From positions 1-20,921 of the IMG/VR virus record IMGVR_UViG_3300022225_000010: 20,921 nt of DNA. One strand, 5' to 3'. The translations under genes were made by a program, and so were the position numbers. Shown here one piece after another: positions 5,321-20,838 of this stretch; position 1 is the stretch's first letter, and every line of letters begins with the position of its first letter. The notes beneath the pieces were generated by a model, which saw only the letters and a program-made list of their open reading frames with translations, was not told where the DNA came from and did not search any database. Source of the stretch: a virus.

Positions 5321-6808
5321 TTAACCCATAGACCAACTAGCAAAACCACCTCTACTATTGATACCTTCACTTGAATATTTTTTACTTCCCTGTACTGCCA
5401 AATAACATGCTAGAACTGTATCAGAATATGTACCATATGGATATTGTAATAATTCTTCTATCCAAATACAAATAGAACAACCACAACCTTTTTCTAATTC
5501 CCAATCAAATTCATCATCTTCCATAGGAACCATCCATCTACCATTCTGAAAGTCCGTAGCCATCGCAGGTACACCAAAATCTAAACTTCTTTTTTGTTGT
5601 GCACCTGTTGTAAATGGCTCAATATTCATATCAATACCTTCTAGATCTTCTAACCAGTCTATTATAGCTTGTTGATAAAAATTATTTTCTACAACAGCAG
5701 CTATAGGCTGTATATCATTATACATCTCTATTAGTTCTCTTGCTGTATCTGGTGAAGAAAATTTACCCCTCCTTATTTCAACAGGATAGCGTCTTTTCTT
5801 TTCTTCATCAAAAGCTAAACAGAATAATACAGTATACTTAGCGCCACTTTTTTGACCTATAGCTAAATCGACACCTATATATTTCTCTTTATCATCATGA
5901 TAAGGAATCTCATCTCTAGGAAAACAACAAGCACGAATATGTTCTTTATTAAATGTCTTGTCAAATTCAGACATCATCAATCCACGAAATGCAGGATTAA
6001 AATACATCTCACCTCTAAACTTAAATTCTTCTATTAAAGCTTCTTTTGGCCATCTTTCAGGCCACACAGGTGTAAATTTTTCATCTATAGCATATCTATA
6101 TGATTTAACTTTAGGTGTCTTTAATAACTTTGCAGTTAAATCATCTTTATGCCACGGTGTTGCTACATATATAATTCTAGATTCAGGGCCACTACGTATA
6201 TCCATCCAGTTACCAAAAAATGCATCTATTACTTGTTGCCTCATACTAGGGTTGAGTATAGCATTTTTAAAACTTACAACATCATCAAAGATGACTAAAT
6301 CAGCTTTACCACCAGTAGCAGATGCTAATACACCACAAGCTTCTACAGATGAATCTTTACGAATTTTAGAACCCGCCAGCCGAATTTTTGATGATGACCA
6401 TAATAAAGCACCTTCATCTGTTATACCTGGGAATATATCATGGTATTTACCCCCCTCTTTAGATATATGACCTTTAATCTCTGATAATATTTTACATGAT
6501 AAATCATCAGAATGACTTATAATTTTTATTCTTAAGTCTTTATTATTACCTAATTCCCATAAACATCTTTCTACTGAAATAGAAGTAGTTTTACGGTGGT
6601 CTTTAGGCGATGTTATAACAACAAACCTATTTTTTGTTATCTTATCATGCCATTCCTTGTGCATTGTAGATAAAGGAAACTCAAAATCAGTAGACATATA
6701 CTGAGAAAAAATAAAAGGATCTTTTATAGCAGATTTTTTAATCTTTTCCAGGTTCAATAAGAGCAATTGCTCTTGTTGTTTCCTCAATTCGTTTTGATAA
6801 TTCGGCAT
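5321..6808 (-). CDS. terL: Terminase large subunit
   Basis: The 495-aa motor protein packages DNA into the prohead. The N-terminal ATPase has a deviant Walker A (SPKDHRKTT, residues 67-75) and a Walker B LVIFDD (171-176). A coupling-like SATGG lies near 163-167. The C-terminal nuclease shows the expected acidic residues: Asp314 (YIGVDLAIG), Glu374 (AVVENN) and Asp463 (TYSDTVLACY). Length and layout are normal. The gene starts 71 bases inside the small terminase gene, and AAGG is a modest ribosome site eight bases before the ATG, so coupling is likely. The cysteine cluster GCGCSIC (441-447) is distinctive. The portal follows 12 bases after the stop. Confidence 0.92.
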   Translation of the reverse strand: MPNYQNELRKQQEQLLLLNLEKIKKSAIKDPFIFSQYMSTDFEFPLSTMHKEWHDKITKNRFVVITSPKDHRKTTSISVERCLWELGNNKDLRIKIISHSDDLSCKILSEIKGHISKEGGKYHDIFPGITDEGALLWSSSKIRLAGSKIRKDSSVEACGVLASATGGKADLVIFDDVVSFKNAILNPSMRQQVIDAFFGNWMDIRSGPESRIIYVATPWHKDDLTAKLLKTPKVKSYRYAIDEKFTPVWPERWPKEALIEEFKFRGEMYFNPAFRGLMMSEFDKTFNKEHIRACCFPRDEIPYHDDKEKYIGVDLAIGQKSGAKYTVLFCLAFDEEKKRRYPVEIRRGKFSSPDTARELIEMYNDIQPIAAVVENNFYQQAIIDWLEDLEGIDMNIEPFTTGAQQKRSLDFGVPAMATDFQNGRWMVPMEDDEFDWELEKGCGCSICIWIEELLQYPYGTYSDTVLACYLAVQGSKKYSSEGINSRGGFASWSMG

Positions 6809-7400: not shown

Positions 7401-8396
7401 CTACTCAGTACCCTCGCTGTAAAAGCTCTCAACTAGAGAGCCATCTTCAATTTGTTTCTTAAATTTTTCACCAAACTTCGTAAGTCTGTACTTTTCACCT
7501 TTATATTCATAGAATCCACCCTTATGAAACATAATCTTTTCCAACTTAATACCTAACATTACAGTATCTTTAATATTATCAAATCCTTTAGAATATAAAA
7601 CATCTACTTCAACAGGACCTCTTGGTTGAGACATTTTATTCTTAATTACAGATAATCTACATTCCATACCTATAGGATCATCTTTTACAACATTTTTAGG
7701 ATATATAAATCCTTTATTATGTGTCTTAACTCTAACACATGAATAAAACTTAATAGAATTCCCATAAGGAGTTGTTTCTGGATTACCAAACATTACACCA
7801 ATTTTCTCTCTTATCTGAGAAACTAATATAAGTGCTACTTTACTATCCCATATTATCTTATTAATTTTTCTTAATGCTTTAGATACTATTCTTGCTTCTT
7901 CACCTAATGCTTTGGTATCTTCAATTTTCTCTGATTCTAATTGAGCTTTACTAGGTAATACTGAAATTGAATCTACAACTAAACACGCTTGTATTTTCTT
8001 ACTTTTAGCAAACTCACATGCTATAATTATCTTATCAAAAGCATCTTCCAGATATTTTGAACTCAATATTAAAAGTTTTGAATCATCTAAACCTAAAGTT
8101 GTAGCCCAACCTGATAATAAAGAGTTTTCTGTATCTAACATTATGGCAAGCCCACCCTTCTTCTGACAACTTGCAAGAAGATTTGCAGCTAGGATGGACT
8201 TGCCTGAACTTTGCCACCCAAATATCTCTGTTAATCTTCCATAAGGAACACCACCACCTAATGACCAATCTAAAGTCATAGAACCGGTACTAAGAAAACC
8301 TAATTTATGTTCTGGTAACGGTTTATCCTTTAAAGTACAAGCGTCTTTGCCAAAACTGGCTAATAAATCATTAAATATGTTCTCATTTTTACTCAT
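7401..8396 (-). CDS. recA: RecA-like recombinase
   Basis: The 331-aa strand-exchange ATPase has Walker A GWQSSGKS (residues 60-67), Walker B LVVDSIS, the L2-region pattern (LVSQIREKIGVMFG...TPYGNSIKFYSCVRVK), and the RecA-typical KNKMSQPRGPVEVDVLY. It is shorter than cellular RecA but otherwise complete. It would drive recombination-dependent replication and repair with the gp32-like SSB and the UvsW-like helicase. I chose the ATG at 8396 because AAAGG stands five bases before it; an in-frame GTG two codons earlier overlaps that site. Three copies of a 13-bp repeat lie just upstream, as also happens before the primase gene. An intrinsic terminator follows. Confidence 0.9.
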   Translation of the reverse strand: MSKNENIFNDLLASFGKDACTLKDKPLPEHKLGFLSTGSMTLDWSLGGGVPYGRLTEIFGWQSSGKSILAANLLASCQKKGGLAIMLDTENSLLSGWATTLGLDDSKLLILSSKYLEDAFDKIIIACEFAKSKKIQACLVVDSISVLPSKAQLESEKIEDTKALGEEARIVSKALRKINKIIWDSKVALILVSQIREKIGVMFGNPETTPYGNSIKFYSCVRVKTHNKGFIYPKNVVKDDPIGMECRLSVIKNKMSQPRGPVEVDVLYSKGFDNIKDTVMLGIKLEKIMFHKGGFYEYKGEKYRLTKFGEKFKKQIEDGSLVESFYSEGTE

Positions 8397-8410
8397 ATAC
8401 ACCTTTCGTA

Positions 8411-8555: not shown

Positions 8556-9344
8556 TTAACTAATTAAACTTTCTATTTCCTTAAGAAGATTTTCTTTTGA
8601 TTTATCATTACTTTCTGTTTCTACAGTTGTTGGTGCTTCAATAGCAAGGGTCTCTGTTTCATCAACAACAGTTTCCATTTTTTTACCATGAATATTATTA
8701 ACAACATTCTGTAATTCAGTTGGATCTCTAAAAGAAGCAATATCTTTATCCAAATCAAACATAGTATCAAGCCATTTTGCTGCTATAGCTTTATCAGTAT
8801 GTAATGGTGAAATATTTGCAGCAGGTTTTAAAGTATATTTAGTATCTTCTTTAGTTGTACCAACCCTTTCTATAACCATATCTCTACCTTCAACTATATC
8901 TGTTATATCACCATAATCCTCATCATATAAATAACTTAATATATTCTCATATAACAATATACCCGATCTCATTATCTGAACACCTTTATCTTCTTCACCT
9001 CTTACTACAATATTGTAATAAACACTTTTAGATGGATATAATGTTGATGCTAATTCTCTATTACCAGTTCTTTTAAGCTCACTAGCAAATTCACAAATAG
9101 GACATTCTTTATTAATAACTCTTAAACAATTATACATACTATCATTTGGTGGAACTTTCCAATGCGATCTGCATTCAAAAGCTATATCACCTGCTTCACT
9201 CCAAGGTGGCAATATTCTAATTTTAGTTGAACCCTGTGGTATCTTCCACATAGGTAAACCACTTCTTTGAGATTCTTCTTCTAATCTCTGCTTAGACTGT
9301 TTTGCCCTTTCTTTATCTACTTTAAAAATCTTTCTTGTTGCCAT
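8556..9344 (-). CDS. ssb: gp32-like single-stranded DNA-binding protein
   Basis: The 262-aa protein resembles the T4 gp32 class. It has a basic N terminus (ATRKIFKVDKERAKQSKQRL) and a zinc-type pattern in the core: Cys/His at FECRSHW, then NCLRVINKECPICEF. A beta-rich OB-fold-like middle (YYNIVVRGEEDKGVQIM) and an acidic, Ser/Thr-rich C-terminal tail ending LLKEIESLIS follow. This class coats ssDNA cooperatively and recruits replication and recombination partners through the tail. It sits among polymerase, recA and other replication genes, with a good ribosome site (AGGGGGAAAG). The core match is by pattern, so gp32-like is an inference from cysteines, layout and context. Confidence 0.8.
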   Translation of the reverse strand: MATRKIFKVDKERAKQSKQRLEEESQRSGLPMWKIPQGSTKIRILPPWSEAGDIAFECRSHWKVPPNDSMYNCLRVINKECPICEFASELKRTGNRELASTLYPSKSVYYNIVVRGEEDKGVQIMRSGILLYENILSYLYDEDYGDITDIVEGRDMVIERVGTTKEDTKYTLKPAANISPLHTDKAIAAKWLDTMFDLDKDIASFRDPTELQNVVNNIHGKKMETVVDETETLAIEAPTTVETESNDKSKENLLKEIESLIS

Positions 9345-9855: not shown

Positions 9856-9884
9856 ATTATACCCTATTTCATAAAAAAAGTCAA
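9856..9884 (-). promoter_or_regulatory. Consensus sigma70-like promoter driving the 133-aa gene, ssb and recA
   Basis: The minus strand reads TTGACT (9884-9879), exactly 17 bases, then TATAAT (9861-9856). Six bases (AAGATT) separate the -10 box from the ATG at 9849, so the predicted transcription start is the A of the start codon. This would give extra expression of SSB and RecA relative to the polymerase. Confidence 0.8.
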
Positions 9885-9886
9885 GT

Positions 9887-10243
9887 TTATTTATTAGAAT
9901 TATTTTTACTTGATATATCGTACTTTTTCTTTAATCTCATTAATGCAACTATTTCTCTTTGTTCTGGTGGTAAATACCAATATATGTAATTAGAACTATT
10001 TTCTGGATAACATTTTAATAACTCTTTAACATCTTTATGACAAACTAAAATATACTTTCTTTCTGTATCATTTAATTCGGTATAATAAAACTTATATAAA
10101 TCTTTTCTTTTTTTATTACACAATTCACACCTATCAATTAAATTTCCATCTATAGCATATCTTCTTTCATAACAATAATGTCCATTTGGAATTTCATTAT
10201 CAACCTTATGCCTTGCAAGATTCATAATATGTATACCTTTCAT
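9887..10243 (-). CDS. Cys-containing phage protein, paralogue of its upstream neighbour
   Basis: The 118-aa product shares its whole second half with the gene immediately upstream: LIDRCELCNKK, YKFYYTEL, ILVCHKDVKELL, YLPPEQRE and LKKKY all have close counterparts there. CELC plus the later CH could form a zinc site. Function is unknown. It has a usable ribosome site (AAGG ten bases before the ATG); a second ATG seven codons in is also preceded by AAAGG. It is the last gene before the internal promoter of the ssb/recA group. Confidence 0.7.
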   Translation of the reverse strand: MKGIHIMNLARHKVDNEIPNGHYCYERRYAIDGNLIDRCELCNKKRKDLYKFYYTELNDTERKYILVCHKDVKELLKCYPENSSNYIYWYLPPEQREIVALMRLKKKYDISSKNNSNK

Positions 10244-10255
10244 AGTATTATTTCC

Positions 10256-10822
10256 TTATCTAGAGGTGTAAAGTTGATTATACTTTTTTCTCAAACTTAT
10301 TACTGCTAATAATTCTTTTTGGTCTGGTGGTAAATATGCGAATATATTTCCTTTTAATTTATTATCTAGTTCTTCATAACATTCTAATAATTCACTAATA
10401 TCTTGATGACAAACTAAAATAAACATTTTTCCCTTAATTAAGTTTGCAGAAGTTCTTACTGTATTCTTTGATTTACCTAATTCTTTATAATAAAATCTAT
10501 ATAACTCATTACTCTTTTTATTACATAATTCACATCTATCAATTAAAACCTTATCTATATTATATCTTTTTCCAGTTCTCCAACTCTCTCCTTCTTTATA
10601 TACTTTATCATCTGGTGTATCATCATATTCTATATCAGCAATTTTTTTTGTAGTATGTTCTATTGAACTATTTGGTTGACTACATATATTATTTAAATTT
10701 TTATTTTTATAAAGAGTTTGATAGTAAGAATAATAATTTTTATTTTGTGTTTCCATTTTAACAGAAAAATTTGCAACATATGGGTCTGAACTATACTCAT
10801 TAGTACCTTCAATTTTCTTCAT
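10256..10822 (-). CDS. Cys-containing phage protein with N-terminal extension, paralogue of its downstream neighbour
   Basis: In this 188-aa product, residues from about 75 onward align by eye with the next gene (LIDRCELCNKK, YRFYYKEL, ILVCHQDISELLECY, YLPPDQKE, LRKKY), so the pair arose by tandem duplication. The first 70 residues, rich in Asn, Ser and Tyr, have no counterpart and look disordered. A likely insertion (KSKNTVRTSANLIKGK) separates the shared blocks. The Cys/His arrangement suggests metal binding. The ribosome site GGGGGG lies inside the end of the polymerase gene. Function is not recognised. Confidence 0.7.
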   Translation of the reverse strand: MKKIEGTNEYSSDPYVANFSVKMETQNKNYYSYYQTLYKNKNLNNICSQPNSSIEHTTKKIADIEYDDTPDDKVYKEGESWRTGKRYNIDKVLIDRCELCNKKSNELYRFYYKELGKSKNTVRTSANLIKGKMFILVCHQDISELLECYEELDNKLKGNIFAYLPPDQKELLAVISLRKKYNQLYTSR

Positions 10823-10823
10823 A

Positions 10824-13178
10824 TTAACATTCCCCCCATGATTTACCTATTTTTATATCAACAAAAACATTTCCTATTAAAGTATCTTTTTCTAATATAG
10901 ATTTAATTTTTTCAATTAAATCTTCTTCATCATTATGTACAATAAAATATACAGCATCATGTTTTGTATGTATAATTTTACTCTTTTTATCTTTTAAGAA
11001 ATTGTGAACTAATAAAACTTTAGACCAAAATATAGCTGAACTACCTGATTGTATAGGAAAATTAACAGATTGTCTGGTAATATCATGGTCTATATCATAG
11101 ACCTTATATTGTGATGTTATAAATCTTCTAGTTCTACCTACCATATCAGCAATATAACCATAATTTAAACCAAAATCACTATATTCTTCAAGTAAATTTT
11201 TTACTTTAGGAAACTTTCTAAAGAAATCCTTTTTTAGTTCTATCGCATAATCTAAAGAAAGACCAAATTCTTCGCATATACTTTTAGAACCTCTACCATA
11301 TAAAGTACCATAAACAACACCTTTAACCTGTGCCCATATCTCTTCATCATACTCTATACCAGCAATTATTCTCGTTAGTTGTTCTTTTGCATCTGAGGAA
11401 TCTAATATTTTAATTAATTTCCTGTCTTTTGATAAATATGCAGCTATTCTAAGTTCAAATTGTTTATAGTCCATACCTACAAATTTATAATCTTTTGGTG
11501 CTATATAACAATCTCTAAATCCACCTTCTCTTGGTATTGTATGTAAAGATGAAGCTAAACGACCACTTATTGTGCCATTAAGATTGTTTTCATTATGTAT
11601 TTTATTATCATCTTGTAACATACAAAATAAATCATTACTAAAATCAGGTTTATAAGAATCAAGATCTTTTAATAAAGATAATAGTTGTAATTCATTATTC
11701 ATTGATAAATATTTTGACCTATCATCTTCAGAAATTGTTTCTGGAACTTCAATATCAAATTTAATCTCTTTCATCAAATATGTGCCTAAACTCTTAACAA
11801 GTACCCTTGAAGTATGTAATAAATTAGGAGCCTTATGTTTAGACTTTAAAGACTTTAATACCTTTTCATCTGTACTATAACAACCTGATGCTGTTTTCTT
11901 ATCAGATTGCAGTCCTAAAACATTAAATAATACATCACCAACCTGTTTAGGCGATTGCCAATTTATATCAGCGATATCAGTCAGTTCACGCTTAATTTTG
12001 ACAAGTTCTAAGTTCTTATTTATATTTAATAATTTTAATTTATTAATATCAATAAGAATTCCTTCCTGCTCTATATCTATTAACATCTGATTTACTGGCA
12101 TAACAGTATTAAAGAATAGTTTGACAAAACATTCATCTATTATCTGCTTATAGAAAAGTTTATATAACCTGTAAGTTACATCAGCATCAACATTATTGTA
12201 TTCTGCAACAACTTTTCTATCCATATCTTGCATAGATATTTTGGAAGATAAATTATAATAAGAAACATCAGTATATAGAGAAGCTAAAGACTTCAACCCA
12301 TATGAAATATTATCATTTAATATACCAATAGCAGCATATGTATCAAAGAACCAATTATTTGTATCAATACCATATCTTACTTTAAGAAATTTACAATCAA
12401 ATTTTGAATGTGTAATCTTTTTAGCTGGTAGAGAAAATATCTTTTTATAATGTTCTAGTGAAAATGGTATACATATGGCAACACCTTCTTTAAATGAAAA
12501 TGAACATGTTATTATATCATTTTTATATGGATTAAGTCCAGTTGTTTCTATATCAAATGCAAATTCATCTACACTTTTTAATAAGTTATATACCTTATCT
12601 ATATCTTCTGTGAACAGATATTTTGTAGGTATTTGTGAATATTTATCATCTGCAACTTTAAAACTTTTCTTTATATCTGATTGCATAGCATATAAATTCT
12701 TTATTACACTCAAAGATGCTTTTGGAGCAAAAGTAGGAATTACACTATATTTATCTTTTTTAAATACATACCCGCGAACATCAGATAATTTAATACCACC
12801 TAAAAAATACTTTGCTGCCATAGCACCTAAAGCAACAATAACTTTAGGTTTTATTACTTTTATTTCTTTTTCTAATAGTTTAGAACATGTATTTATTTCG
12901 GTTATTTTAGGATTTGCTCCACCTTTAGTATTACATTTAACCAACATTGTAACATAAACATCATTTCTTTTATAACCAGCTTTTTCTATACATTCATTTA
13001 ATAAAGATCCAACATTACCAGAAAAAGCGTTACCAAATATAGAATCATTTTGACTTATAAAATCACCAACAAACATAATATTACTATTTGTATTACCGTT
13101 ACCAATAATACAATGTTCTCTACACTTATTTCTATTATACTCACCTAAATTACATAAATCACATTGTTTTTCAATCAA
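10824..13178 (-). CDS. polA: Family A DNA polymerase with N-terminal uracil-DNA-glycosylase-like domain
   Basis: This is the replicative polymerase, 784 aa from the chosen start. Residues 1-170 resemble a family 4 UDG (C-x2-C, C-x3-C, VTMLVKC, VIVALGAMA), but the usual GEAPG and HPS-type catalytic motifs read GDFIS and APKAS, so glycosylase activity is doubtful. A DnaQ-like 3'-5' exonuclease follows with intact motifs FDIETTGL (209-216), HSKFDCKFL and YNNVDADVT. The PolA palm has motif A DYKQFELR (Asp570), the O-helix Lys619/Tyr623 (K-GVVYG) and motif C KHDAV (Asp741). Similar UDG-exo-pol fusions are known, for example in SPO1-like phages. I prefer the TTG at 13178, nine bases after GGGAGG; an ATG at 13187 abuts that site, and an ATG at 13226 preceded by GGAG is also possible. 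Confidence 0.9.
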   Translation of the reverse strand: MIEKQCDLCNLGEYNRNKCREHCIIGNGNTNSNIMFVGDFISQNDSIFGNAFSGNVGSLLNECIEKAGYKRNDVYVTMLVKCNTKGGANPKITEINTCSKLLEKEIKVIKPKVIVALGAMAAKYFLGGIKLSDVRGYVFKKDKYSVIPTFAPKASLSVIKNLYAMQSDIKKSFKVADDKYSQIPTKYLFTEDIDKVYNLLKSVDEFAFDIETTGLNPYKNDIITCSFSFKEGVAICIPFSLEHYKKIFSLPAKKITHSKFDCKFLKVRYGIDTNNWFFDTYAAIGILNDNISYGLKSLASLYTDVSYYNLSSKISMQDMDRKVVAEYNNVDADVTYRLYKLFYKQIIDECFVKLFFNTVMPVNQMLIDIEQEGILIDINKLKLLNINKNLELVKIKRELTDIADINWQSPKQVGDVLFNVLGLQSDKKTASGCYSTDEKVLKSLKSKHKAPNLLHTSRVLVKSLGTYLMKEIKFDIEVPETISEDDRSKYLSMNNELQLLSLLKDLDSYKPDFSNDLFCMLQDDNKIHNENNLNGTISGRLASSLHTIPREGGFRDCYIAPKDYKFVGMDYKQFELRIAAYLSKDRKLIKILDSSDAKEQLTRIIAGIEYDEEIWAQVKGVVYGTLYGRGSKSICEEFGLSLDYAIELKKDFFRKFPKVKNLLEEYSDFGLNYGYIADMVGRTRRFITSQYKVYDIDHDITRQSVNFPIQSGSSAIFWSKVLLVHNFLKDKKSKIIHTKHDAVYFIVHNDEEDLIEKIKSILEKDTLIGNVFVDIKIGKSWGEC

Positions 13179-13458
13179 AATAATCATCCTCCCAATAACT
13201 CTTAGGTAAAGTTTCATCTTCATCATCTAAATAAGCTCCACCAATTTTTACCTTTTGAATCCATGCTCCATAGTATTCATCAACTGGTGTTTTATCTGAA
13301 TCACCTATTACATATTTAGCTACCAATCCACGACTATCTTTCATATGTAATTTCCAACGCTTATATAACAACTTCCTACATTCAGATTTTGTTTTACCTA
13401 CTGTCATCCATTGAAAATGTTCTGTATTCATAGTTAATATATAAAATGTTTCATCCAT
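13171..13458 (-). CDS. Small acidic protein of unknown function
   Basis: The 95-aa product has a mixed N-terminal half (FYILTMNTEHFQWMTVGKTK, then a Lys/Arg-rich helix CRKLLYKRWKLHM) and a strongly acidic tail ending SYWEDDYFD. The start has a good ribosome site (AGGAGAATAAAT). Its last codons carry the GGGAGG used by the polymerase gene, so the two genes overlap by eight bases and are probably translationally coupled. No motif identifies it. Confidence 0.65.
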   Translation of the reverse strand: MDETFYILTMNTEHFQWMTVGKTKSECRKLLYKRWKLHMKDSRGLVAKYVIGDSDKTPVDEYYGAWIQKVKIGGAYLDDEDETLPKSYWEDDYFD

Positions 13459-14035: not shown

Positions 14036-14398
14036 TTAAAAATATCTATTATTAATTTCTGGAACGCAACATGTTACTTTATGTCTAGGTCTAGACGATA
14101 CTACTTTTTTATTCTCATGATTACAACTTTGACATAATCTATTTTGTATACCGTAACTTGTAAATTGTCTCTCGCATTTCAAACAAACTCTAGTTTTGAT
14201 AAAAATACCAATCATCTTTTTAGTATATAAATCAGCTTCAGTTTTTCTAATACCAAACTTTCTAGCGTGTTTACGACAATATTTTTTACTTGGTGCTCTA
14301 GTATATAATATCTTATCGCAACCTCCATATATACAAGGTTTTTTAATAATCTTTCTTTTTAAAAACATCTTTTTTCTTTTTCTATACAACTCGTTCAA
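14036..14398 (-). CDS. Zinc-ribbon protein of the type common in phages
   Basis: The 120-aa basic protein has two Cys/His clusters. The first is near residues 22-44 (CIYGGC...YCRKH). The second, near 72-92 (VCLKCERQFTSYGIQNRLCQSC), matches the short zinc ribbon with a C-x2-C, F-x-S-x-G-x-x-N-R-x-C-x2-C pattern seen in many phage proteins of unknown role. A start at TTG (14398) is favoured because GGGGG lies six bases upstream; an internal ATG at 14368 has a weaker site. It is the first gene after the 333-nt gap, so its promoter may lie in that gap. DNA or RNA binding is likely from charge and zinc sites. Confidence 0.7.
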   Translation of the reverse strand: MNELYRKRKKMFLKRKIIKKPCIYGGCDKILYTRAPSKKYCRKHARKFGIRKTEADLYTKKMIGIFIKTRVCLKCERQFTSYGIQNRLCQSCNHENKKVVSSRPRHKVTCCVPEINNRYF

Positions 14399-14414
14399 TA
14401 TATACCCCCATTAA

Positions 14415-14524
14415 GATAAATTAAATACTTGATATTTAAGTCAAGCAAAAATTATTAAATTTAAATAAATATTTTTTATCATAAGTATTAATATAATAAA
14501 GATTTAAAAAAAATTTAAAAAACC
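14415..14524. other. Very AT-rich noncoding stretch, candidate unwinding or regulatory region
   Basis: Nearly all A and T, with runs such as AAAAAAAATTTAAAA. It includes an imperfect inverted repeat CTTGA-N8-TCAAG at 14428-14445, whose minus-strand reading gives TTGACT (14444-14439) without a convincing -10 box. It is the longest noncoding AT-rich segment in the window and sits beside a + strand promoter. That combination is compatible with a transcription-primed origin, though no initiator boxes are recognisable. Confidence 0.4.
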
Positions 14525-14554
14525 TTGACTTTTTAACTAAAAATATGTTATAAT
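14525..14554 (+). promoter_or_regulatory. Near-consensus + strand promoter opposite to all genes
   Basis: TTGACT (14525-14530), an 18-base spacer, then TATAAT (14549-14554) with TG one base before it (extended -10). The predicted start is about 14561. No + strand protein gene follows, so the product should be an RNA. Confidence 0.75.
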
Positions 14555-14560
14555 AGGTAG

Positions 14561-14652
14561 AAATATTTTCTTTTAAACGAAAGAAAAAATATTCCATGAA
14601 TATTATTTATTTGTTTTTTCTTTCGTTTTTAAATTTGCGTAGCAAATTTAAA
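14561..14652 (+). ncRNA. Candidate structured + strand RNA
   Basis: Downstream of the + strand promoter, a perfect 15-bp stem is formed by AAACGAAAGAAAAAA (14575-14589) and TTTTTTCTTTCGTTT (14614-14628). Inside its loop is a second perfect hairpin, AATATTC-CAT-GAATATT (14588-14604). The big stem is followed by two further T (five in a row, 14626-14630), so transcription may stop there, giving about 70 nt. Otherwise it continues into a third hairpin, TTTAAATTTGC-GTA-GCAAATTTAAA (14628-14652). It would be antisense to any minus-strand read-through mRNA. Promoter and hairpins are seen; the RNA itself is inferred. Confidence 0.5.
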
Positions 14653-14723
14653 TCACCTTTTACCCTACTATTACTCTTACACCAAACATATGCTTTGCGA
14701 TTTGCGTTGAATTCCCTTTTCAT
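14607..14723 (-). CDS. Possible 38-aa basic peptide
   Basis: An ORF beginning MKREFNANRKAYVWCKS and ending RKNK starts eight bases after the preceding gene and ends inside the hairpin region. It is rich in Lys and Arg. Its ribosome site is weak (GGAAA directly before ATG) and it uses CGC codons that are rare in neighbouring genes. Open reading frames this long are less expected in AT-rich DNA, so it is reported, but it may be chance. Confidence 0.3.
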   Translation of the reverse strand: MKREFNANRKAYVWCKSNSRVKGDLNLLRKFKNERKNK

Positions 14724-14731
14724 TTTCCAAA

Positions 14732-15067
14732 TTAAAAACTATCAACATTATCCTTTTCAGTAAGTACACAATATTTTCCAGTTGTTAAATTATAAAGTAA
14801 TTTTGCGTTGCCATTACACCTGAATAAATTATATGAAATTAATGATTCCAGCTTTGAACCATACCATAGCATGATATAATGCTCATCATTATCTGTGTCC
14901 CAATTATGCCCATTAAATTCTGTTTCTTCTTTAATTATAGAATATTTCTCTTTATTTGAAAAATAATTGCTATCTGTAGCTGTTACATATAAATAGTTTT
15001 TAATATCATCTGCAGTAAGTAAATTATGTATCCATGAATCAGACTTATATTCCATTAAATCTTTCAT
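14732..15067 (-). CDS. Protein of unknown function
   Basis: The 111-aa acidic protein, beginning MKDLMEYKSDSWIHNLLTAD, has a strong ribosome site (AAAGGAGAAATTAA). The sequence has a predicted helical N terminus and a beta-rich C terminus (HYIMLWYGSKLESLISYNLF, KYCVLTE). No motif is recognised. It is the last well-supported gene before the 333-nt gap that contains the + strand promoter. Confidence 0.6.
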   Translation of the reverse strand: MKDLMEYKSDSWIHNLLTADDIKNYLYVTATDSNYFSNKEKYSIIKEETEFNGHNWDTDNDEHYIMLWYGSKLESLISYNLFRCNGNAKLLYNLTTGKYCVLTEKDNVDSF

Positions 15068-15084: not shown

Positions 15085-15243
15085 TTATTCATATCCATAT
15101 TCATTTACTATTTGTTGACACGTTTCTAATAATAAAATCTGTGCCTCTTTTTCTTCATAACTAAGTTCTTCATCCCAATTTGAGTAGCAATCTTGCAAAT
15201 CAGTTAATGTATTTTGAAATCTACAATATCCCATATTAGACAT
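15085..15243 (-). CDS. Small conserved phage protein (YCRFQNT...DLQDC type)
   Basis: The 52-aa acidic protein carries the block MGYCRFQNTLTDLQDCYSNW. This Y-C-R-F-x-N-T-x-x-D-L-x-x-C pattern is found in many unrelated phages in small proteins of unknown function. The start at 15243 is chosen because GGGGG lies eight bases before it, inside the end of the primase gene; it overlaps primase by eight bases. A later in-frame ATG at 15234 lacks a site at good spacing. The rest is helical and acidic (DEELSYEEKEAQILLLETC). Confidence 0.75.
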   Translation of the reverse strand: MSNMGYCRFQNTLTDLQDCYSNWDEELSYEEKEAQILLLETCQQIVNEYGYE

Positions 15244-16021
15244 TTTTTATACCCCCTTTACAAAGTTCTAAAATTTCTATTTGTGATAAATCACCAGGAT
15301 CCCCGGAATCAATAATAATAGGGACCATATTAAAATATTCTGATAATTCCTCACAAATTTTTAATGTATATTCTTTAGCATCACTATCAAGCATAACAAA
15401 TATTGTCTTTATATTTAAAAAAGCTGTAAATAACCTTATTTGTTCTTTGCTTATTCTTTTACCTAATATTGCAATTCCGTGATCTGGTATTTTAAGTATA
15501 TCAAATACACCTTCAAATAATATTATAAAATTCTTATATTCATCTAAACTTTTTAAAGAAAAAACACCTAAATTTTTCTTACCATAAGTTAAATATTTGG
15601 GTGTTTTATCAAAGACTGTTCTACCCTGCCAACCAATAATTGTATCATTAACTTTAACAGGAAAAACTATTCTTCCAGATAATACACCAGTCTGTGTATA
15701 ATAACCTTGTAACTTGACACAAGAATCAACAGTTATATCTCTATTTTTAAGGTATTTTATAGCCTGATGTTCATTTGATAAATCTGTTAATTTAATAAAT
15801 TCTTTAGTATTTACTAAATTTCCCTTTGTTTCAGGCTTTTTAATCACCTTAACTGGTTTAATAGTTTTTAATAAATTTAAGATATCTTTATTATTTACTA
15901 TTTTACCACCCCAGTCACATTTCCAACAATGAAAAACACCTTTCTTAACATTGATGCTAAGATGGTCTGTTTCATCATCACAACTAGGATTTATGCAAGT
16001 TGTTGTTATTTCTACTGTCAT
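15236..16021 (-). CDS. DnaG-like primase with zinc finger and Toprim domain
   Basis: The 261-aa protein has an N-terminal zinc ribbon with Cys9, Cys14, Cys32 and Cys35 (CINPSC...HCWKC). A DnaG-core-like segment (GRIVFPVKVNDTIIGWQGR, about 116-134) leads into a Toprim fold with Glu170 (FEGVFD) and Asp212/Asp214 (LDSDA). These are the template-recognition and metal-binding parts needed to make RNA primers for the DnaB-like helicase/PolA replisome. It lacks the helicase-binding domain of cellular DnaG, as short phage primases do. No Shine-Dalgarno sequence precedes the ATG; instead four copies of the 13-bp repeat stand directly upstream. The small YCRFQNT gene overlaps its end by eight bases. 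Confidence 0.85.
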   Translation of the reverse strand: MTVEITTTCINPSCDDETDHLSINVKKGVFHCWKCDWGGKIVNNKDILNLLKTIKPVKVIKKPETKGNLVNTKEFIKLTDLSNEHQAIKYLKNRDITVDSCVKLQGYYTQTGVLSGRIVFPVKVNDTIIGWQGRTVFDKTPKYLTYGKKNLGVFSLKSLDEYKNFIILFEGVFDILKIPDHGIAILGKRISKEQIRLFTAFLNIKTIFVMLDSDAKEYTLKICEELSEYFNMVPIIIDSGDPGDLSQIEILELCKGGIKNV

Positions 16022-17163: not shown

Positions 17164-18399
17164 TTATAATATATTTGCATCCCATATTCTAACTTTAGCT
17201 AAATTGATATTACATGATATAACTCCACCTTTTGGGCCTGCTTTTTGTTTACTTACTAATAATCTTAATTTATTATTTTTTAATTCATCTTCTGTTTGAC
17301 ATACTGTTAATACTATATGTGCTATATGTACTTTACCTTTACCACCATATGTATCTCTCAAACCAACAAATTCCTTTCCATAACTAGAAGCTGCTGTTTG
17401 AGAAGCTGTCCATATAGGAATATTAGTTTCATTTGCTAATGATTTTAGTTCTCTTGCTGCATCTTCAACTTCTTGCCATCTACTATCTCTTTTTGAAACA
17501 GTTGCTATTTCATCTAAATAATCTAAAATAATAAGATCTATATTTTTCATACTAGCAACAATAGAACCTAATTTAGAAATAGAAAAATCTCCGCCTGTAA
17601 AATCTTTTATATATAATAAGTTTTTATGTTTTTCTACCTTTTTTAATAATGTTTTTGATTTATCAGGATCTTTTCTAAATGTTATAAAATCAAGATTAGA
17701 AAATAAAGCATCAAATCTTTGCATAACTGTTTCTATTGAATCTTCTAATGTTACAAATAATACTTTTTTCTTATCCATAACAGCACCCCAAGCAAAATTT
17801 AATAATAATGTTGATTTACAACCGCCTGTTTGTGCGTTAATTAAACCAAATTCTCCAGGTGCTATCCCACCACTTAATTTATTATCCAAATCATTTATTT
17901 TTGTTGGTATAGGAGAAGGTCGTGATTTTCTATTATTTAAAGAAGATACATATTCAACTGGTTTATTACTATCTGGATTATATTTATTTATATTCTTTAA
18001 ATCAGAAAGTATAGTTTCTACCTTATTAATATCAAAATCTTTTATTGCCTGTGATAATCTCTTTTTAAATTTTCGTGTTTTAATATGACTACTTAATTCT
18101 TCTTTTATAAAATTAATATCATATTTAGTATTGAATATCTCAGTTATATTTTTTACTATGATAGATGATTCTTCTTTATGAAAACCCTGACTATTTATAG
18201 TTTTCTGTAATAAAAAGATAAAAGTTTCATAAGGTATAATGTCTTTACATTTTTTATGATATGTTTCAATTATAAAAAAGAAATATTTGTAATATTGATT
18301 TTGAAATATATCATCATCAATATAAGATATTGATTCATTTAAAAATTGTTTATCTTTTAATAGAGCAGATAATAACAATTTTTCAAATTGTGTGTTCAA
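17164..18399 (-). CDS. DnaB-like replicative helicase
   Basis: The 411-aa ring helicase has a DnaB-N-like helical domain (1-110, opening FEKLLLSALLKDKQFL), a linker, then a RecA-fold motor. The motor has Walker A AQTGGCKST (189-197), Glu219 in TLED, Walker B LIILDYLDE (289-297) and a later AHIVLTVCQTEDE region. The Walker A has Cys194 where nearly all P-loops have Gly before the Lys, an unusual substitution. It would unwind the fork together with the primase encoded 1.1 kb further on. The start is TTG (18399) with GAGGGG six bases upstream; it overlaps the upstream stop codon (TTGA), so translation is coupled. Confidence 0.88.
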   Translation of the reverse strand: MNTQFEKLLLSALLKDKQFLNESISYIDDDIFQNQYYKYFFFIIETYHKKCKDIIPYETFIFLLQKTINSQGFHKEESSIIVKNITEIFNTKYDINFIKEELSSHIKTRKFKKRLSQAIKDFDINKVETILSDLKNINKYNPDSNKPVEYVSSLNNRKSRPSPIPTKINDLDNKLSGGIAPGEFGLINAQTGGCKSTLLLNFAWGAVMDKKKVLFVTLEDSIETVMQRFDALFSNLDFITFRKDPDKSKTLLKKVEKHKNLLYIKDFTGGDFSISKLGSIVASMKNIDLIILDYLDEIATVSKRDSRWQEVEDAARELKSLANETNIPIWTASQTAASSYGKEFVGLRDTYGGKGKVHIAHIVLTVCQTEDELKNNKLRLLVSKQKAGPKGGVISCNINLAKVRIWDANIL

Positions 18400-18878
18400 T
18401 ACATTCCCCTCTTTACTATATTTTTAAGTTTAGGTATTCTTTTTATTTCTTGTAAAACTTTAGTATTCCATTCTTTAGGGTGATTTTTTAATTTCATACA
18501 TCTAAAATAATAATAAAATATATCTATTCCTAAAGCTTCTTCAACTGTATAACCGTTTTCAATAAGATTTTTTAAATAACTTTCTTGTATTTCATGTATA
18601 CCTTTTACATCAATAGAATTAGAATAGTTTTTAAATCTATTTATTGCTTGTTTAGATATTAATTGATTTGGATAAGGTCTGTTACCTCTTTCTTCAAATT
18701 GTGCAACCATATACTCATATGGTGGAATATCCAAATTAATTAAAATTGTTCTTAATTTCTTAAATGTCTTTTTAAAATTAATAAAATTTTTACCATGTCT
18801 ATTAATCTTATATTGTGGTATATGATATTTCCTTACCATCTCTTCATATAATATTAAAATATCTAATGTCTTAATCAT
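18396..18878 (-). CDS. Unknown replication-operon protein, possible helicase loader
   Basis: The 160-aa basic, helix-rich product begins MIKTLDILILYEEMVRKYHI. The ATG at 18878 is chosen because it overlaps the SF2 helicase stop by eight bases; a longer reading would run inside the helicase gene. No motif is recognised. Position between the two helicases, and a stop codon overlapping the DnaB-like start, suggest an accessory or loading factor. That is inference from context only. Confidence 0.65.
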   Translation of the reverse strand: MIKTLDILILYEEMVRKYHIPQYKINRHGKNFINFKKTFKKLRTILINLDIPPYEYMVAQFEERGNRPYPNQLISKQAINRFKNYSNSIDVKGIHEIQESYLKNLIENGYTVEEALGIDIFYYYFRCMKLKNHPKEWNTKVLQEIKRIPKLKNIVKRGMY

Positions 18879-20178
18879 ATTTACATCCACTTTTTCCAAA
18901 GACATCACAAATGCGAATATCATATTTTTCTTTAGTAAGTTCATCTACTCTTATTTTAGTATGCTGTTCAAAATACTTATTACCCAGTTCAGCAAAACAA
19001 AATACTTCAACTGAATCCTTGCCTTTACAATTTCTTAATGCTCTACCTATCTTCTGTGTTAATCCAAAAGGACTTTTGCCAGCCCACGCTAATATTAATG
19101 TTTTAATATTATTTAAATTAACACCAGTATCAAATATATTAGATGATAATAATACCTTAATTTTACCCTTTTTAAAATCTTTTTTAATTTTATCTCTTTT
19201 AGATTTAATATCATTACCATCTATATAAACAGAATCAGGTATTAAATTATGTAATATTTTTCCATGATCTATTCTTCTGAATAATATCATAACTTCATTT
19301 CTATTTTTACATAAATCAGCAATTATTTGATTTCTTTTTTTATCGTTTATTAACATATCTTCTGCTCTACTATATGATTTATCATCGATAAAATCTACTT
19401 TATAAGGTATTAAATAAATTTTTGGTTTTACAGATATACCCTTTTCTATTAATTTTGATTGTTCTAATTTAATAATAGGTTTACCAACAGCAGCTTCTAT
19501 ATAATAATCTTTACCATCACTACGTTTTGGTGTTGCACTAAAACCTAATCTTATATTAGCATTAACACAACTACTGACTATTTTATAAAATGTATTTGCT
19601 GCGACTGTTTGTACTTCATCAACTAAAACACCATTAAATTGTATTAAATCATACTTTTTAGCACTTTGAAATGTTGATAACTCATAATTTTGCATTGTTA
19701 AAAATTCATCAAATGTTTCCTGAAGTTCTGTTAATATATCTATCCTATGAGCTAATACAAGAAATTGTGATTGTGGAAATGCTGATATTATACCTGCTAT
19801 ACATCTGGATTTACCAGCATTTGCTGCAAGATTTATTATACCTAGTCTATTTTTAATACCACATTTTATTGCATCAACTTGATAATCTCTTAAATTTGCT
19901 CTATCTAGATATTCTGTTAAATTATTAAGATCAACTTTAGGATAATTACCAATATATTCTATTTCTACATCTTGACCTAATACTTTAGTTGCTCTTTGTA
20001 AAAAGCCAACAGGAAATTTATCATTTTTTAAAAATTTAACACGACCATCCCATACACCTGATTTATAGGCTGGTGAAAACCAGTAATTAGGTGATTTAAA
20101 TGTTAAAGCCTTATTTAAAGAAGCAATATCATAATTACCAGATATTTCTGCTATATTACCTTTTATTTTGATTATCAT
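18871..20178 (-). CDS. UvsW-like SF2 DNA helicase
   Basis: The 435-aa protein opens with an about 95-aa domain containing YWFSPAYKSGVWDGRVKFL, typical of UvsW-like phage helicases. The motor motifs follow in order: RDYQ (97-100), motif I AANAGKS (118-124), motif II DEVQ (187-190), motif III SATP (214-217), a motif V-like SSNIFDTGVNL, and motif VI QKIGRALR. UvsW remodels stalled forks and Holliday-like branches and clears R-loops, fitting a phage with RecA and gp32-like SSB. The start lacks a clear Shine-Dalgarno site; it lies 23 bases inside the preceding gene, so coupling is likely. The DEVQ box, rather than DEAH, is normal variation. Confidence 0.85.
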   Translation of the reverse strand: MIIKIKGNIAEISGNYDIASLNKALTFKSPNYWFSPAYKSGVWDGRVKFLKNDKFPVGFLQRATKVLGQDVEIEYIGNYPKVDLNNLTEYLDRANLRDYQVDAIKCGIKNRLGIINLAANAGKSRCIAGIISAFPQSQFLVLAHRIDILTELQETFDEFLTMQNYELSTFQSAKKYDLIQFNGVLVDEVQTVAANTFYKIVSSCVNANIRLGFSATPKRSDGKDYYIEAAVGKPIIKLEQSKLIEKGISVKPKIYLIPYKVDFIDDKSYSRAEDMLINDKKRNQIIADLCKNRNEVMILFRRIDHGKILHNLIPDSVYIDGNDIKSKRDKIKKDFKKGKIKVLLSSNIFDTGVNLNNIKTLILAWAGKSPFGLTQKIGRALRNCKGKDSVEVFCFAELGNKYFEQHTKIRVDELTKEKYDIRICDVFGKSGCKYD

Positions 20179-20371
20179 ATTGTTTAATTTTTAATTTTAT
20201 ATATTGTCTATGTTGTTCTTTTGGTACATATGTAGGTATTTCATATACAGGTAATCTAAGCCAACAATGATAACATAGTATTCCTCTTAAACGGGTATAA
20301 TAACCTAGATCTCCATTAAGATTTTTTTTACACCATAAACATTTTTTAATAGATACTTCCAATATTTCCAT
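20156..20371 (-). CDS. Zinc-ribbon-like small protein, member of a tandem triplet
   Basis: This 71-aa protein is the most divergent of three neighbours. It shares CLWCKKN, GILCYHCWLRLP, YVPKEQHRQYIKLKIKQY and spacing with the other two. Two C-x2-C pairs about 21 residues apart suggest one zinc ribbon, and the C-terminal half is a basic helix. Function is unknown; nucleic-acid or protein binding is possible. It overlaps the UvsW-like gene by 23 bases. Confidence 0.7.
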   Translation of the reverse strand: MEILEVSIKKCLWCKKNLNGDLGYYTRLRGILCYHCWLRLPVYEIPTYVPKEQHRQYIKLKIKQYDNQNKR

Positions 20372-20378
20372 TACTGTA

Positions 20379-20636
20379 TCAACTTACTTTTCTATAAACA
20401 TGACCATTAGATAATCTTTTAAATTGATATTGCTTAAATTTTGCTTTAAAGTATTGTTTATATTGTTCTTTTGGTATATATAGTGGAACGTTAGAAACTT
20501 CAAACATATGTAAAGGTAATTTAAGCCAACAGTTATAACATACTATTCCTTTTATACGGGTAACATTAATTCTATCATTAGGAAGTATATCATTTTTACA
20601 ACATATACATTTTTTATTAGACTTTTCCATCTTCAT
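20379..20636 (-). CDS. Zinc-ribbon-like small protein, member of a tandem triplet
   Basis: This 85-aa middle member has C-x2-C (CICC), then GIVCYNCWLKLPLHMFEVSN, and YIPKEQYKQYFKAKFKQY. It is closest to the upstream copy, sharing the FE-x-x-x-x-P-x-YIPKEQY segment, and has an extra 13-residue basic C-terminal tail. Its ATG overlaps the upstream gene's end by 20 bases, with no separate ribosome site visible, so coupled translation is likely. The role is unknown. Confidence 0.7.
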   Translation of the reverse strand: MKMEKSNKKCICCKNDILPNDRINVTRIKGIVCYNCWLKLPLHMFEVSNVPLYIPKEQYKQYFKAKFKQYQFKRLSNGHVYRKVS

Positions 20637-20838
20637 ATTGTTTAAGTCTTAATTTTAAATATTGTCTATATTGTTCTTTTGGTATATATTGAGGTATACT
20701 TTTTAATTCAAATATTTTTAAAGGTAATTTAAGCCAACAATTATAACATATCATTTCTTTTATAAAACTAAAGTTATTTGTTTCATTATTAGGCACATGC
20801 TTTTCACAATATATACATTGTTTAACAGATATTTCCAT
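20617..20838 (-). CDS. Zinc-ribbon-like small protein, member of a tandem triplet
   Basis: This 73-aa first member in transcription order has CIYC, MICYNCWLKLPLKIFELKS and YIPKEQYRQYLKLRLKQY. Its ribosome site is AAAGGAT before ATG. The second Cys pair is always CY-N/H-CWL, a conserved core across the triplet. Tandem duplication with divergence is evident. Function is unknown. Confidence 0.7.
   Translation of the reverse strand: MEISVKQCIYCEKHVPNNETNNFSFIKEMICYNCWLKLPLKIFELKSIPQYIPKEQYRQYLKLRLKQYEDGKV

Follow-up and report, generated by a model that had tools for sequence, protein, structure and literature searches.

This locus raises the question of why a phage whose recognisable genes all lie on one strand should carry a promoter pointing against them, into DNA that folds into large hairpins and holds no coding gene. 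The stretch of DNA analysed, here called the window, was the 20,921-base virus record IMGVR_UViG_3300022225_000010 (positions 1-20,921). Relatives were collected by scans of IMG/VR, giving a small family with few independent lineages, all of them metagenome contigs. The promoter and hairpins are a genuine conserved element and not a product of chance, and the locus is most likely a control site for the start of replication or for a small RNA.

An antisense promoter reads into perfect hairpins

The promoter and hairpins lie in a 333-base intergenic gap (14399-14731) between gp120 and gp111, surrounded by replication genes and immediately upstream of the DNA-polymerase operon (Table 1). The recognisable genes in the window were all on the - strand, so the promoter is opposed to every one of them, as the original prediction had stated. 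The first gene of the divergent block leading to the DNA polymerase is gp120, and every lineage has kept it close to the locus. A conserved inverted repeat with CTTGA...TCAAG arms, CTTGATATTTAAGTCAAG, lies between the divergently transcribed units and is a possible operator; its counterpart is TTGACAT...ATGTCAA at the same place in L019, and three spaced CTTGAC copies in L022.

Table 1. Positions of the locus, its gene setting and corresponding features in relatives.
Feature	Record	Position	Strand	Remark
Sigma-70 type promoter	window	14525-14554	+	TTGACT 14525-14530, 18-nt spacer, TATAAT 14549-14554, TG extension
AGGTAG discriminator	window	14555-14560	+	adjoins -10; invariant in close relatives
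Alternative early hairpin	window	14566-14587	+	TTTTCTTTT with GAAAGAAAA; energy prediction only
Stem P2	window	14575-14628	+	perfect 15 bp, arms 14575-14589/14614-14628
Inner hairpin H2	window	14588-14604	+	7 bp, AATATTC-CAT-GAATATT, arms 14588-14594/14598-14604
Hairpin P3	window	14628-14652	+	perfect 11 bp, arms 14628-14638/14642-14652, loop GTA, apex C-GTA-G
AT-rich segment	window	14400-14524		upstream of promoter; 100 bp of it at 99.9th percentile of instability in window
Inverted repeat	window	14428-14445		conserved
gp120	window	14036-14398	-	small protein, two zinc-ribbon-like Cys clusters
gp111	window	14732-15067	-	convergent, far side of locus; close relatives only
UDG-exonuclease-PolA polymerase	window	10824-13226	-
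Primase	window	15236-16021	-
DnaB-like helicase	window	17164-18399	-
SF2 helicase with UvsW_N domain	window	18871-20178	-	30.1 bits against a Pfam cut-off of 25.3
UvsX-like recombinase	window	7401-8402	-
SSB	window	8556-9344	-
Antisense promoter	L010	5927-5898
Antisense promoter	L012	1528-1499
Antisense promoter	L019	6539-6511		12/12 with TG
CxxC/'IP-x-x-Q' proteins	window	20156-20838, 9887-10822
CxxC/'IP-x-x-Q' proteins	L019	6900-8011
CxxC/'IP-x-x-Q' proteins	L023	7075-7902

The predicted promoter with its extended -10 was present, and was the only site in the window to match at least 11 of 12 positions with the TG, compared with a mean of 0.15 in shuffled windows. A promoter of equal quality turned up in 28 of 200 shuffled windows, and on its own the promoter is only mildly unusual. 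The start of its RNA, deduced from the promoter alone, is predicted at ~14560-14562, and a non-coding transcript would be made from ~14561. A scan with the promoter core recovered 50 stretches, mostly from outside the family, several of which serve coding genes of other marine phages as promoters; the AGGTAG discriminator also followed the same core, ahead of coding genes, in unrelated marine phages. That the core TTGACTTT...ATATGnTATAATAGGTAG also stands before coding genes of marine phages outside the family speaks for a working type of promoter. It was found directly 5' of a gene starting with MTDNELE in many contigs of unrelated marine phages, among them L184, L192, L208, L210 and L219. 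Separately, a gene-strand promoter, TTGACT-17-TATAAT (9856-9884, - strand), lies a short distance downstream of the polymerase gene, has a counterpart in the other lineages and probably marks the start of the recombinase/terminase block.

The perfect 15-bp stem with a second perfect hairpin inside it and the 11-bp hairpin that follows were also found at the expected coordinates. Perfect arms of at least 15 bp did not arise in any of 200 dinucleotide shuffles of the window, nor did a comparable pair of hairpins (0/200), and the + strand RNA fold had a z of -6.3, with no equally stable fold among 200 shuffles. The - strand folded nearly as well (z = -4.1, with values of about -4 to -6 overall); since both strands fold well, folding alone is uninformative on which strand does the work. 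The alternative hairpin at 14566-14587, which P2 excludes, is predicted to form first on the emerging RNA. Template switching between hairpin arms can yield perfect palindromes without selection, a caveat on the perfection of the arms and a point against the origin reading. Three further structures were considered and rejected: a pairing of AGGT (14555-14558) with ACCT after P3, seen in folds, because AGGTAG precedes the expected RNA start; the TCACC after P3 as a mimic of the 16S rRNA tail, because it is absent from L007; and a U-A-U triple helix, possible in close relatives, because L019 is without the strands.

The promoter and a C-GTA-G cap are kept in six lineages

At the equivalent place, an antisense promoter was found in six lineages, whose DNA polymerases are 54-100% identical to that of the window: 93% in L005/L006, 83% in L007/L012, 58% in L015-L019 and L021 (among which the locus is identical), 55% in L020, and 54% in L022 and L023. 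The promoter sequences of L019, L020, L022 and L023 had diverged, and those of L020, L022 and L023 were weaker. In every lineage covering the place, the promoter stood immediately upstream of, and divergent to, the gp120/gp104 and polymerase cluster. Beyond this family, no DNA similarity was found among GenBank phages, where the best polymerase match was ~26% identical over the full protein. Bacterial genomes scanned with the polymerase alignment yielded distant matches only, with no more than 32% identity over the best segment, and no host is therefore named. The hairpin core AAATTTGCGTAGCAAATTT was found in IMG/VR only in L008 and L009, and the scan shows the promoter-hairpin unit in neither.

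In all six lineages the promoter was followed by a hairpin capped by C-GTA-G, on arms that in distant relatives are quite different. The cap reads GC-GTA-GC in the window, L005, L007, L022 and L023, AC-GTA-GT in L019 and CAC-GTA-GTG in L020. The motif was close to unique in each record. When five further outward pairs were required, with G.A allowed, such a hairpin occurred once each in the window, L012, G007, G001 (133 kb, both strands) and G003, always at the locus, and twice in L023, one of the two being at the locus. The L020 hairpin fell below the five-pair rule, and CGTAG occurred only twice in its 27 kb (both strands), both times in the intergenic region of the locus. Thus a host-type antisense promoter is coupled, across the family, to hairpins with maintained pairing and a C-GTA-G cap.

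Compensatory base changes in relatives had been named as the test of the locus, and they were found. Of the 33 stem pairs compared across the three nearest lineages, 10 had changed on both sides yet still paired and only one had changed on one side, and standard pairs made up 90.9% of cells, a level of covariation reached by none of 500 shuffles and in no slid register, in a set of three sequences whose stems were juxtaposed by hand before alignment. Almost none of the stem changes were to G-U. In H2 the relatives have C-G where the window has T-A. Tandem G.A steps flank the cap in L019, L022 and L023, and one lies in P2 of the close relatives L005/L007; all of these steps are in a Py-GA-Pu context. 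A covariance model (R1) built from the close relatives gave the L023 locus as its best distant match, at 18.1 bits and an insignificant E of 0.54. The possibility that AT-rich DNA had acquired a promoter and palindromes by accident draws on the frequency of such a promoter alone in shuffled windows, and is barely conceivable in the face of a hairpin pair missing from all shuffles, the conservation in six lineages and the covariation.

A peptide gene, a terminator and an antisense RNA to a fixed neighbour are unlikely

The absence of a coding gene after the promoter was borne out: the + strand ORF at 14596-14763 shifts frame between the window, L005 and L007, and no conserved reading frame was found. 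No match to Rfam was obtained at gathering score, and at E up to 10 the only matches were far below gathering, none of them above chance. No intrinsic terminator was found within 500 nt of the locus in any of seven records; good gene-strand terminators are present elsewhere in the phage (7338-7298 and 101-62). Termination or insulation of the convergent gp111 and primase block on the - strand would suit hairpins that lie 80 nt past the gp111 stop and a - strand that folds well. However, the hairpins hold no terminator-like site on either strand, P3 of L005 and the L019 hairpin have their T-run first and A-run last on both strands, like a terminator reversed, and the promoter would go unexplained, making this role highly improbable.

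The gene facing the promoter was found to differ between lineages. Close relatives have gp111 there, L019 and L023 have a phrog_11227 gene, and L020 has an ATP-dependent DNA ligase; in L022, the end of an ORF of 60 aa was not found within ~900 bases. Since the facing gene is not fixed, a cis-antisense role on a set neighbour is unlikely, and the proposal of an antisense regulator of the neighbour did not hold. The results thus speak against all three roles: terminator, peptide gene and antisense RNA acting on a conserved neighbour.

An origin-type transcript and a trans-acting small RNA are the leading readings

Our preferred reading, held tentatively, is that the locus produces an origin-type transcript that forms an R-loop and leaves the displaced strand to fold into hairpins. 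RNA polymerase would open the region, and the RNA would be kept paired to its template as an R-loop, aided by the adjoining easily melted DNA. The displaced + strand could then form GTA-capped hairpins, which would keep the bubble from closing or flag it to the phage helicase and primase, and the RNA would prime leading-strand synthesis; a UvsW-like phage helicase may later remove the R-loops, as in T4. Several observations favour this reading. The antisense promoter and the C-GTA-G hairpin are kept together in all six lineages, the GTA loop is on the + strand, which is the strand that an R-loop would displace, and the location is in a replication module of a phage that encodes a UvsX-like protein and a UvsW_N helicase. 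The two-sided changes outnumber the one-sided, and the scarcity of G-U is consistent with pairing as DNA, as is the context of the tandem G.A steps with an origin. Mini-hairpins of the d(C-GNA-G) type are known to be unusually stable, as are d(Py-GA-Pu) steps. In L022, a 14-nt tandem repeat directly after the hairpins (6137-6234) is homopurine-rich on the antisense-transcribed strand.

DNA that melts easily was also found at the locus. The very AT-rich segment described beside the transcript is real and lies upstream of the promoter. In six of seven records, very unstable DNA (98.5th-100th percentile) adjoined the locus, a signal that is partly expected, since the largest gaps tend to be AT-rich. 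It was downstream of the promoter in G001, G003 and L023, but upstream in the window, G007 and L012, contrary to the downstream position required in T4, and G005 had no marked unstable DNA. Base composition gave weak support for an origin. The best GC3 break fell at the locus or 1-2 genes from it in five of six records; it ranked ~10/500 against shuffles in G001 and ~48/500 in the window, stood out in no other record and was reversed in sign in L023. The break was not confirmed at four-fold degenerate sites, and the overall GC skew of G001 turned at 12-20 kb with no turn at the locus.

The nearest known parallel is in T4, where oriF and oriG consist of a promoter and an unwinding element and their R-loops are unwound by UvsW (PMC3016281). 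As there, a promoter at this locus reads into a small non-coding candidate origin with AT-rich DNA nearby, and the phage encodes UvsX-like and UvsW-like proteins, the helicase being accessory and not site-defining. The T4 promoters are MotA-dependent middle promoters, whereas the one here is plain sigma-70 type, and the T4 unwinding element is downstream, unlike the unstable DNA in our nearest relatives. The hairpins conserved here also have no reported counterpart at T4 origins in PMC3016281; that T4 origins need none counts against giving ours an origin role. We consider it rather unlikely that the locus represents a novel kind of phage origin, where firing of the antisense promoter would bare the non-template strand and let GTA-capped DNA mini-hairpins with tandem G.A form, as the site at which the phage helicase-primase loads.

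A close rival of the origin-type transcript, possible though less probable, is a trans-acting structured small RNA of ~90-100 nt, its end set by processing or by Rho, which would bind a host or phage protein or mRNA, with the GUA-capped hairpin as its recognition element. The strong promoter, the very stable fold, the covariation and the missing coding frame would all suit such an RNA, as would a C-GUA-G cap that is invariant in otherwise differing stems and the correct placement of L023 by R1, at its insignificant score. Against this, no lineage has a terminator, so the RNA would have no defined end; length and layout are highly variable between lineages; the cap is the sole unpaired stretch conserved in all of them; and G-U changes are scarce and an Rfam relative is missing. 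Phages do encode solitary structured RNAs, the RNA anti-CRISPRs or Racr (PMC10651486), which the structured RNA predicted here from sequence resembles in being solitary. The arms at this locus vary freely between lineages, and by arm comparison alone no mimicry of a CRISPR repeat is apparent; a GTTTC...GAAAC palindrome was found in L023 only. The absence of a terminator, the rarity of stem changes to G-U and the adjacent easily melted DNA tilt the balance slightly toward the origin-type transcript.

Two further readings, promoter interference and a put-like role, are less likely than either of these. The lambda promoter pO is opposed to the main operon, and its loss harms replication (PMC3985674). 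An interference promoter of this kind, by firing against neighbouring early operons, would tune them and thereby replication, with hairpins that slow or shape the polymerase and an RNA that itself does little. The setting resembles that of pO and OOP, with a short predicted non-coding transcript opposed to early genes in a replication region, and the promoter has been retained while the RNA sequence diverged. Nevertheless, interference leaves the conservation of the C-GTA-G cap unexplained, the promoter here points away from the polymerase operon, and the gene in front of it changes from lineage to lineage. OOP is antisense to cII mRNA; the hairpins here lie in a gap and not over a gene. Lambda OOP also has its own terminator, for which the locus has no counterpart. 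We regard interference as improbable.

Less probable again, with a very slim chance, is a cis-acting RNA like the put elements of HK022, where putL has two stem-loops in ~70 nt (PMC9378689). Such an RNA would bind the transcribing RNA polymerase through its two stem-loops and render it resistant to pauses and terminators, put itself binding the zinc-binding domain of RNA polymerase beta-prime. Two adjacent stem-loops do lie here directly after a promoter, within ~95 nt, one of them GTA-capped, in which it differs from put. The genes downstream, however, are on the other strand, leaving none in the same direction to express, and antitermination would only give a long antisense RNA.

Whichever reading holds, the locus is a precisely placed non-coding element, conserved in a family of phages that has no cultured member and is known from metagenomes alone, and it yields base-level predictions testable outside the native host, the invariant C-GTA-G cap pinpointing the bases for mutation. 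As an origin, the locus would join promoter firing, hairpin DNA and replisome loading in one unit of ~130 bp; as a small RNA, it would found an RNA family absent from Rfam.

Other features of the family

Further non-coding sequences were seen beside the hairpins in distant relatives. The 567-base gap of L020 (6573-7139) holds several strong hairpins in a row, none with a T-tail; among them are an 18-bp GGCTCCC/GGGAGCC element and, on the gene strand, a second GTA-capped hairpin, GTGGC-GTA-GCCAC. A 20-base non-coding sequence, AGGTAYRCACTYATTTTATT, lies 3' of the hairpins on the - strand in L019 (6322-6341), L022 (6095-6114) and L023 (5815-5834), and is absent from IMG/VR contigs outside the phage family. 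Small CxxC proteins with 'IP-x-x-Q' near the C-terminus form an expanded family in these phages, with several tandem paralogs per phage (Table 1).
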